NCBI GenBank assembly: GCA_016783965.1
Contig: JADHVO010000002.1
Location: 248,001-312,000 of the forward strand
Reading direction: 5' to 3'
Source of the DNA: Alphaproteobacteria bacterium
Lineage (GTDB): Bacteria; Pseudomonadota; Alphaproteobacteria; Micropepsales; Micropepsaceae
Length of the DNA stretch: 64,000 bases
Made by a program: the position numbers and the translations under genes. The notes beneath the pieces were generated by a model. That model saw only the letters and a program-made list of their open reading frames with translations, searched no databases and was not told where the DNA came from. Positions 41,363-44,056 of the stretch are shown here, piece by piece; within the stretch, counting starts at the first letter, position 1, and every line of letters begins with the position of its first letter.

Positions 41363-41629
41363 ATGCCAAATATCGCCTCGTCCAAGAAGCGTGTCCGCAC
41401 GACCGCCAAGCGCACCGCCATCAACACCGCCCGCAAGAGCCGGGTCCGCGGCTATATCCGCAAGGTCGAGGAAGCGATCGCAAAGGGCGACAAGGCGGCG
41501 GCCCGGGTTGCGCTGAAGGCCGCCGAACCGGAAATCATGCGCGGCGTGACCAAGGGCGTGCTGCACAAGAACACGGGTTCGCGGAAGGTGTCCCGCCTCG
41601 CGCAGCGCGTGAAGAAACTCGGCAAGTAA
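41363..41629 (+). CDS. rpsT: 30S ribosomal protein S20
   Basis: 88-residue S20: [39 protein letters not shown] at the start, ending [16 protein letters not shown]. Very basic, as expected for a 16S rRNA-binding protein. Has its own promoter and a following hairpin. rpsT upstream of dnaA is common in Alphaproteobacteria. Confidence 0.98.
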
Positions 41630-41647
41630 CTGAGTCTTCGGGACGAC

Positions 41648-41676
41648 TCCGTTTTATTGTCCGTGAACGGATTTTT
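41648..41676 (+). terminator. Probable rho-independent terminator of rpsT
   Basis: TCCGTT (41648-41653), a 12 nt loop, AACGGA (41666-41671) and then TTTTT. The stem is short (6 bp) but the T run is exactly placed. Confidence 0.55.
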
Positions 41677-41683
41677 CCGCCTA

Positions 41684-42054
41684 TTTTGTGTGTGCAGCGC
41701 GAAAAGCCGACCGCACGTCACGTAAGTGTTTGAAATCTGAAACAAACACACGTTCGGGGCAAAAATCCGTATACGTACAATGCGTTAGCAGTCACAAAAG
41801 CGCATAGGTTCTCTTTTCGTTGCCTTGCGGGCGAATCAGTTTTCAGCGAGGTTAACGGCCGTTCGGTGGGCACGAGAAAAGAAAATGTCGAACAAAAGAA
41901 ACAATAAAAGAACAGTCTTCGGCAGCACGGTTCGACAGTCCGGCAACCTCTGTAAGCATAATTACAGTACTCACTAAGAATTCCGGAAAATTCAACGTTC
42001 CCAAGGCCGGGAGTTTCCCGGTCGAGGGCGACCTTTGCCGAAAGCGTATTTCCC
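41684..42054. other. AT-richer intergenic region upstream of the rhodanese-dnaA pair
   Basis: About 370 bases without a gene and clearly less GC-rich than the surroundings, with A-rich tracts around 41875-41925. A perfect inverted repeat CTGTAA, GCATAA, TTACAG lies at 41950-41967. I saw no DnaA boxes (TTATCCACA or near matches) and no cluster of GANTC sites beyond chance (41645, 41833), so it is not supported as oriC. It probably holds the promoter of the rhodanese-dnaA transcript. Confidence 0.55.
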
Positions 42055-42486
42055 ATGTCCTCCCCCACTTCCTACGCCGGTGATATCTCCGTCCAGGATG
42101 CCTGGACACTGCTCCAGTCCGATCCCGAGGCGCGCCTCGTCGATGTGCGCACCCAGGCGGAGTGGAACTTCGTCGGTGTGCCGGACCTGAGCAGCGCGGG
42201 CAAGGAAGTCGCGCGGGTCGAGTGGCAGATGTTCCCGGCCATGCAGGTCAATCCCAGTTTCGTCGCCGACACCCAGAACGCGGTGGGCGACAACAAGAAT
42301 GCGCCGGTGCTGTTCCTCTGCCGCTCCGGCGCGCGCTCGCGCAGCGCGGCGATTGCCCTGACGCAGGTGGGTTACACACGCGCCTACAACGTGGCGGGCG
42401 GCTTTGAAGGCGATCTCGATGGCGACCGCCATCGCGGACACAAGAATGGTTGGAAGGCCGCCGGCCTTCCGTGGAAGCAAACATAG
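42055..42486 (+). CDS. Rhodanese domain protein
   Basis: 143-residue single-domain rhodanese. Begins MSSPTSYAGDISVQDAWTLLQSD; the VDVRTQAEWNFVGVPDL block near residue 30 and the active-site loop CRSGARSRSAAI near residue 90, with the catalytic cysteine, are intact. Transfers sulfur; acceptor unknown. The next gene is dnaA, 148 nt further on, and the two may share a transcript. Confidence 0.92.
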   Translation: MSSPTSYAGDISVQDAWTLLQSDPEARLVDVRTQAEWNFVGVPDLSSAGKEVARVEWQMFPAMQVNPSFVADTQNAVGDNKNAPVLFLCRSGARSRSAAIALTQVGYTRAYNVAGGFEGDLDGDRHRGHKNGWKAAGLPWKQT

Positions 42487-42503
42487 GTTTCGAGGAGGGG
42501 CGT

Positions 42504-42533
42504 ATGTGTTTTCGACGAGGTGGTGCGGTCTAG
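42504..42533 (+). CDS. Putative dnaA leader peptide (uORF)
   Basis: A 9-codon frame MCFRRGGAV with stop TAG (42531-42533). It is preceded by GAGGAGGGG 3 nt before the ATG, one of the strongest ribosome-binding sites in the window. The stop lies inside the stem-loop 42525-42541. I infer a leader peptide for the dnaA mRNA; there is no coding-conservation evidence here. Confidence 0.5.
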   Translation: MCFRRGGAV

Positions 42534-42573
42534 AAGACCGCGAGGCGTACATGAAACCGGGCGGAAAGCCCGG
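42525..42573 (+). promoter_or_regulatory. Two stem-loops in the dnaA leader
   Basis: Stem-loop 1 is GCGGTCT, AGA, AGACCGC (42525-42541); stem-loop 2 is CCGGGC, GGAAA, GCCCGG (42557-42573), both perfect. They lie 60-110 nt before the dnaA start. Neither is followed by a T run, so they look like translational or RNA-stability elements rather than terminators. Confidence 0.7.
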
Positions 42574-42634
42574 AAACAATAACGGGGCGCCGGTGCGTTG
42601 CGTGTGCCGGACAGAGCAAGCGGGTTTTGGAGAA

Positions 42635-44056
42635 ATGGCACAGATGAACACAAGGCCGACGCGGCCGGATTGGCCGTCGGCATGGGCAGGCGCGCGCGAG
42701 CGCCTGCGCCGCGAACTGGGTGATGCGGTTTTCGAGGCCTGGATCGGGCCGCTGACGCTGGAGAATTTCGAGAAGGACGAGGTGCAGATTGGCGCGGCCA
42801 AGCCGTTCGTGCGCAACTGGGTGGCCAACCACTATGTCCCGCGCATCGACCGCGCGCTGCGCGCCGAGGGCACGGACCCGGTATCGATCAACATCGTGCT
42901 GGCCGCGGCCAAGCCGCTGATCGGTGGCAATGTCGTGCGCGAGCCGGCGCGGATCGAGCCGCCGGCACCGGTATTCGGAGCGCGCCCGGCCGACGATGAC
43001 GGCGCGGGCGAGACCAAGGGCTTGTGGACCCGGATGCTGCATCCGCAGCAGACCTTCGAGAGCTTCGTCGCAGGCTCGGCGAACGAGTTCGCCCTGTCGG
43101 CCGCGCGCACCTTCGTGGACGGCACGATGGATGCGTCGCTGCTCTACATCCATGGTGGCTTCGGCTACGGCAAGACGCACCTGCTGAATGCCGCGGCGCT
43201 GGAGATGAAGAAGCGCGGCAAGCGCGCGCTGTTCCTGCGCTCGGAAGACTTCATGCGCCACTTCCTGGGGGCGCTCTATCGGAAGGACACGCTCAACTTC
43301 AAGGAAGAGCTGCGCACCGCGGAGGTGCTGATCATCGACGATCTCCAGCACATCTGCCGCTCGACCGCGACGGCGTCGGAGTTCCTCTACACCGTCAACG
43401 CGTTCGCCGATCTGCGCCGGCGCGTGGTGATCGCGGCCGACCGCGCACCCGCCGCCCTGGAAGGGCTCGGTGCGGACGTGAAGTCGCGGCTAGCCGGCGG
43501 GCTGGTGGTCGCCCTGGACAGGCCGGACCGCGACACGCGTCTCGCCATCCTTAAGGCGCGTGCGGCGGACTTCGCACGGCACAAGCCGCAGGCGCTGCTG
43601 CCCAACGACGTGCTGGAGCACATCGCGGACATGGAGGAGACGAGCCCACGCGAACTGATCGGCGTGTTCACCAAGCTCGCGACCTACACCGACCTCACCA
43701 AGAAGCCGGTGACGCTGGAGACCATCGAGGACGTCGTGGGCCTGCGCTCGGCGCCGGGCACCAAGACCTCGATCGAGGACATCCAGAAGAAGACGGCCGA
43801 GTTCTACAAGCTCGACGTGCGCGACTTTCATTCGCCGCAGCGCGCTCGGCGTGTGGCGCGACCGCGGCAGGTTGCGATGTACCTGGCGCGCAAGCTCACG
43901 ACGCGGTCGCTGCCGGAGATCGGACGGCGCTTCGGCGGGCGCGACCACACCACGGTCCTGCACGCCTGCCGCCGCATCGAGGCGCTGTGCGAGGAGGATC
44001 CGATGTTCCGGCAGGAGGTCGACTTCCTGAGCCAGATGCTGTCGCGCGCCAGGTAA
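42635..44056 (+). CDS. dnaA: Chromosomal replication initiator DnaA
   Basis: 473 residues with the chosen start. Domain I (LRRELGDAVFEAWIGPL, about 25-45) is followed by a short linker, the AAA+ core with Walker A GGFGYGKTHLL near residue 175 and Walker B LIIDDLQHI, and the domain IV helix-turn-helix with GRDHTTVLHACRRIE near the end. Start candidates: ATG 42635 with GGAG only 2 nt away, ATG 42644 with GGAG 11 nt away, and in-frame ATG 42551 (MKPGGKPGNNN) with GAGG. Binds DnaA boxes at oriC. The leader looks regulated. The next gene on the strand is a TPR protein, then dnaN. Confidence 0.97.
   Translation: MAQMNTRPTRPDWPSAWAGARERLRRELGDAVFEAWIGPLTLENFEKDEVQIGAAKPFVRNWVANHYVPRIDRALRAEGTDPVSINIVLAAAKPLIGGNVVREPARIEPPAPVFGARPADDDGAGETKGLWTRMLHPQQTFESFVAGSANEFALSAARTFVDGTMDASLLYIHGGFGYGKTHLLNAAALEMKKRGKRALFLRSEDFMRHFLGALYRKDTLNFKEELRTAEVLIIDDLQHICRSTATASEFLYTVNAFADLRRRVVIAADRAPAALEGLGADVKSRLAGGLVVALDRPDRDTRLAILKARAADFARHKPQALLPNDVLEHIADMEETSPRELIGVFTKLATYTDLTKKPVTLETIEDVVGLRSAPGTKTSIEDIQKKTAEFYKLDVRDFHSPQRARRVARPRQVAMYLARKLTTRSLPEIGRRFGGRDHTTVLHACRRIEALCEEDPMFRQEVDFLSQMLSRAR

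Follow-up and report, generated by a model that had tools for sequence, protein, structure and literature searches.

A conserved micro-ORF with tandem CGA codons in the dnaA leader of Rhizomicrobium and its relatives

How the synthesis of the replication initiator DnaA is tied to nutrients remains an open question. In Caulobacter crescentus, a structured 5'UTR of 155 nt damps translation of dnaA, but most of this 5'UTR is not needed for nutrient sensing, which lies in the DnaA N-terminus (PMC4489657, PMC8443254). Here, we consider the dnaA leader in a 64,000-nt stretch of DNA (the window) from a genome whose group has Rhizomicrobium electricum (Micropepsaceae) as its closest named member. Comparison with related genomes suggests that in these soil bacteria the translation of a micro-ORF (uORF) within the leader helps to set the amount of DnaA.

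The interval between the rhodanese-domain gene and dnaA

The gene order in the window is rpsT, an AT-rich gap, an ORF with a rhodanese domain, a 148-nt gap and dnaA. The 148-nt gap is intercistronic and begins immediately past the stop of the rhodanese ORF (42486). Its features and those of the flanking genes are as follows.

42055 to 42486, + strand: rhodanese-domain gene (Pfam PF00581, E=6.6e-11; synteny)
42492 to 42500, + strand: Shine-Dalgarno (SD) sequence of the uORF, GAGGAGGGG; anti-SD duplex -12.1 kcal/mol versus -5.8 for dnaA
42504 to 42533, + strand: micro-ORF MCFRRGGAV* (ATG TGT TTT CGA CGA GGT GGT GCG GTC TAG), with homologous MRR... uORFs in 23 other leaders
42507 to 42512, + strand: TGTTTT, window-specific in-frame insertion of two codons after the AUG (alignment of the six nearest genomes)
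42513 to 42518, + strand: tandem CGA CGA codons (conservation of codons 2 and 3 across uORF leaders)
42524 to 42542, + strand: hairpin P1, overlapping the 3' end and stop of the uORF (hairpin scan, covariation)
42551, + strand: in-frame ATG ahead of dnaA (sequence)
42557 to 42573, + strand: hairpin P2, CCGGGC-GGAAA-GCCCGG; helix kept in the uORF clades, with an A-bulged covarying counterpart in the uORF-less clade
42574 to 42582, + strand: A-rich unpaired spacer past P2 (alignments)
42582 to 42603, + strand: hairpin P3, a prediction with uncertain boundaries (from folding the window leader; GCCGG-type arms in relatives)
42620 to 42632, + strand: weak SD region of dnaA, GCGGGT...GGAG (sequence; anti-SD duplex energy)
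42635 to 44056, + strand: dnaA, ATG at 42635 (Pfam DnaA_N, Bac_DnaA, Bac_DnaA_C)

The uORF with its SD, two hairpins, the ATG at 42551 and the dnaA start had been picked out in a first-pass annotation of the same DNA, and each is where it was placed. The poor ribosome site of dnaA noted there is genuine and is general in the group.

The uORF begins 9-24 nt past the rhodanese stop in 23 of the 24 genomes that have it; in L024, where the rhodanese stop could not be placed, the uORF sits at the corresponding position. In some genomes the rhodanese stop overlaps the uORF SD (TAGGAGG). The leaders are U-poor, purine-rich, G-rich and C-poor. In three other alphaproteobacterial families (L038, L041 and L043), the rhodanese stop is 2-3 nt from the dnaA start ATG. 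The pairing of the two genes is therefore ancient, and the structured gap is peculiar to the Rhizomicrobium group.

Several other observations concern the surroundings. In the window, the reading frame of dnaA stays open well upstream of its start (42404-42634, with a TTG at 42404), and automatic annotation could wrongly lengthen DnaA as a result; this extension is not kept in L003. The AT-rich gap between rpsT and the rhodanese gene (41640-42054) has blocks around 41722, 41762 and 41851 that are kept in six relatives, and is a candidate for the dnaA promoter or for an origin of replication. It contains no consensus DnaA box (TTATCCACA). A sigma-70 promoter scan found none, a type of scan that alphaproteobacterial promoters may escape, and no Rfam family matched at E<=1 within 41600-42800. 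The same genome carries a second ORF (G000:C7:470183-470476) that is 48% identical to the C-terminal DNA-binding domain of DnaA.

Conservation of the micro-ORF and its arginine codons

A sample of 69 genomes of the genus, seven of the sister genus, other members of the family and a GTDB scan yielded 75 different dnaA leaders. An SD, an ATG and a uORF starting with MRR or a close variant are kept in 24 distinct leaders. The peptides are of two main types, MRRGxAA* in near relatives (MRRGGSA, MRRGPAA, MRRGIAA, MRRGGAA, MRRGVTA) and MRRxxAPRGRRxGG* in a second clade (MRRGGAPRGRRVGGS, MRREEAPRGRRTGG, MRRRNAPRGRRLGGR, MRRVMAPRGRRLGGN and others). They are 7-15 residues long and rich in arginine and glycine (85 and 56, respectively, of 238 residues). 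At the site of the insertion, the five nearest genomes read uninterrupted ATGCGACGAGG in the alignment of six, by which the window's uORF is a derived form whose extra 6 nt leave the frame intact. Start, SD and frame, the marks of a conserved uORF, are all kept in relatives, and the uORF is probably translated.

The pattern AGGAGG-N4-10-ATG occurs five times on the two strands of the 64 kb taken together, and the SD is stronger at the uORF than at dnaA in 23 of 24 genomes, with means of -10.5 versus -6.8 kcal/mol. Among the 75 relatives' leaders, nine have an ATG uORF with an SD match of at least 6 nt, against a mean of 1.8 and a maximum of 5 in dinucleotide shuffles. Furthermore, a search for the same uORF across the 69 genomes gave nine matches at the dnaA locus and the remainder at the control rate; the element is therefore dnaA-specific.

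On a tree of DnaA, the uORF is present in 6/6 members of clade A, 11-12/12 of clade C, 2-3/4 of a small clade and 5/9 of another clade, and in 0/17 of the subclade next to that one. It has been lost several times, including from this whole 17-row subclade, and is therefore dispensable. Crown members without it have a median genome size of 2.7 Mb versus 3.6 Mb (sizes matched by hand, with relatedness ignored), and the clade from which the uORF disappeared consists mostly of smaller genomes.

As a reference for the arginine codons, codon usage was taken from the dnaA genes, six genes of the window and a pattern search. CGA is codon 2 in 22/24 uORFs and codon 3 in only 17/24 (L002 read without the insertion), while it makes up 1.6% of the arginine codons in these dnaA genes. 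As a stricter control, SD-ATG-CGN-CGN sites in the window's own genome have CGA at codon 2 in 4/35. The wobble base of codon 2 changes once on the tree. At codon 4 (Gly), the wobble base changes 10 times and the first two positions three and four times, substitutions that look like a coding pattern. Between the closest pairs, one-base codon changes in the uORF frame are 14 synonymous and 11 non-synonymous, where 33% synonymous is expected, and the other two frames are at expectation; this excess is moderate in size (our own binomial estimate gives a p of about 0.02, on pairs of our choosing).

The tRNA-Arg anticodons of this genome are ACG, CCG, CCT and TCT, with none UCG, so CGA must be read by inosine wobble. 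Arginine pairs containing CGA were slow in a Salmonella his-leader assay of codon speed (PMC4046918). The use of CGA in place of CGC may, nevertheless, only reduce structure at the start site.

Hairpins of the leader

The perfect stem of P1 in the window is GCGGTCT-AGA-AGACCGC (42525-42541). Perfect stems with loops of 3-8 nt are expected by chance 0.14 times per 148 nt at 7 bp or more and 0.54 times at 6 bp or more, so neither P1 nor P2 is remarkable by itself, and their reality rests on conservation. The first-pass annotation had staked its reading on the uORF and stems being conserved in close relatives; the uORF is kept there, and P1 carries compensatory changes.

In relatives, the first base of the 5' arm of P1 lies at about +15/16, counted from the AUG. 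In 18 genomes (L002 corrected for the insertion), the best hairpin past the uORF start has its first base 13-17 nt downstream of the A of the ATG; the best hairpin beats 95% of shuffles in 12/24, in a scan that ran up to L028 and left out the last, divergent members. When the arms are aligned from the ATG, G-C, C-G or U-G occurs at the fourth pair, C-G, U-A or U-G at the fifth, and C-G, G-C or U-A at the sixth. Double-sided changes number 11 cells versus 4.6 in shuffles (0/500), in an alignment with a placeholder loop and a 3' arm register chosen by pairing, which biases the percentage paired. The local folding energy of the whole P1 region has a z near 0 and is not below shuffles in most genomes, so the evidence for P1 comes from the hairpin scan and from covariation.

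P2 reads CCGGGC...GCCCGG in near relatives and has G-U and A-U variants in clade C, its covariation being weak. In the uORF-less clade it takes an A-bulged form (CCGGACACGAATACGTGCCGG) that covariation supports well. There, in L012 (CCGGACAGGAAAACCTGCCGG), L014 (CCGGACACGAATACGTGCCGG) and their relatives, the A-bulged hairpin lies shortly upstream of dnaA as the main element of a short leader, where a protein or an RNase may act on it.

Action of the micro-ORF on dnaA

Comparison of the genomes shows that the start, SD, CGA codons and P1 are conserved, as is the order in which the parts follow each other. From these we infer translation of the uORF, pausing of ribosomes on it, and an effect on dnaA together with its direction. 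The reading that we favour, to which we give about an even chance, is that the intercistronic micro-ORF, conserved and slow to translate, acts in cis to tune the expression of dnaA. Ribosomes would load efficiently at the strong uORF SD, either independently or by reinitiation from the nearby rhodanese stop, and would meet the slow CGA codons with P1 positioned where the mRNA enters the ribosome. The peptide would be completed and termination would occur 77-108 nt before dnaA, and the P2/A-rich/P3 module would then lie between the last stop codon and the weak dnaA ribosome site. The rate and efficiency of uORF translation, hence the arginyl-tRNA and elongation state of the cell, would set the ribosomes or intact mRNA reaching dnaA, and the effect would most likely be a throttle. 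That the micro-ORF is a sensor of arginyl-tRNA or elongation speed, gating synthesis of the replication initiator, is a more tentative proposal.

In another explanation, the uORF is a non-sensing stepping cistron that passes ribosomes terminating on the rhodanese gene towards dnaA and keeps them on the leader, thereby protecting the mRNA. The short distance from the rhodanese stop, the overlap of that stop with the SD in some genomes, the direct adjoining of the two genes in three other families and the U-poor, purine-rich composition would all suit such a role. However, the 77-108 nt from the uORF stop to dnaA are long for reinitiation, the conserved CGA codons and P1 are left unexplained, and 17 related leaders do without a uORF. 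We regard this explanation as unlikely.

Alternatively, the leader may act as RNA only, P1-P2-P3 forming an RNase or protein site or damping initiation as in Caulobacter, where the dnaA 5'UTR is also structured (PMC8443254), and the ATG being incidental. Covariation in P1, and in P2 of the uORF-less clade, is consistent with this, as is L085, which has a P1-like stem but no ATG. Against it, conservation extends to the SD, ATG and CGA that lie upstream of P1 and fall in no consistent predicted stem, the substitutions at codon 4 are codon-like and the SD is strong, so that an RNA-only element appears unlikely.

A switch by base pairing, in which melting of P1 by a uORF ribosome would make the dnaA start accessible or inaccessible, was the mechanism proposed in the first-pass annotation. 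P1 overlaps the uORF in most genomes that keep it, but the geometry is specific to clades: the stop codon is within the first stem, as had been reported, in the window's clade (at the P1 loop side in clade A) and lies 8-12 nt beyond the 3' arm in the second clade (clade C). The ATG at 42551, which had been seen as an alternative dnaA start and part of the switch, is missing in all five nearest relatives, and P1 and P2 are predicted to be separate local hairpins in the window leader. Furthermore, with a model ribosome at the uORF start, codon 3 or stop, the predicted cost of opening the dnaA start is on average unchanged (mean differences of +0.11, -0.04 and +0.23 kcal/mol over 24 genomes). No base-pairing switch is therefore visible in these predictions, and a kinetic or ribosome-supply mechanism is likelier; we consider the melting switch, which neither modelling nor conservation supports, quite improbable. 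Finally, action of the peptide in trans is highly improbable, for although an AP(R/W)GRR core is common to nine leaders of one clade, this core coincides with the P1 stem and the peptides of the other clade are variable and of seven residues.

Known systems resemble the micro-ORF in some features and differ in others. Like the hisL and trpL attenuator peptides, it is a tiny ORF rich in one amino acid (here arginine, only a putative sensed residue) that overlaps a hairpin and has slow codons as a potential sensor. Unlike them, it has no U-tract terminator on the coding strand (no intrinsic terminator-like site was found on the + strand of 42487-42634) and shows no alternative fold, and dnaA, the gene it precedes, has no biosynthetic function. 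Predictions for the 24 genomes revealed no sequestered start of the erm/cat type that a uORF ribosome would free, and the uORF stop is not close to the downstream start, as it would be in coupling by reinitiation. Minigenes with tandem rare arginine codons by the start of a very short ORF occur in phage or artificial constructs, and the uORF resembles them in its ATG followed by rare arginine codons; we know of no link between them and dnaA. Within the Alphaproteobacteria, a DUF1127 gene of Sinorhizobium meliloti is likewise controlled by uORF translation, through attenuation with C-rich, presumably Rho-dependent elements (PMC12218461), whereas the leader here is G-rich and C-poor. The Caulobacter dnaA leader is also long and structured, with independent stem-loops, a weak SD-like site and nutrient control at the level of translation, but no rhodanese gene, strong-SD micro-ORF or uORF is described for it (PMC4489657, PMC8443254). 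A Caulobacter profiling paper treats leader peptides in general and, in the passages found, names none for dnaA (PMC4117421). Our search, which covered mostly open literature, found no dnaA leader peptide or uORF described. The uORF-containing dnaA leader is real, conserved and apparently undescribed so far. One strain of the group, R. electricum DSM 21034, is available in culture.

If true, tuning by the micro-ORF would be a second solution to coupling DnaA synthesis with nutrients, independent of the DnaA N-terminus of Caulobacter and found in another alphaproteobacterial order. Should the sensor reading also be true, it would draw a direct line from translation capacity to the initiation of replication.
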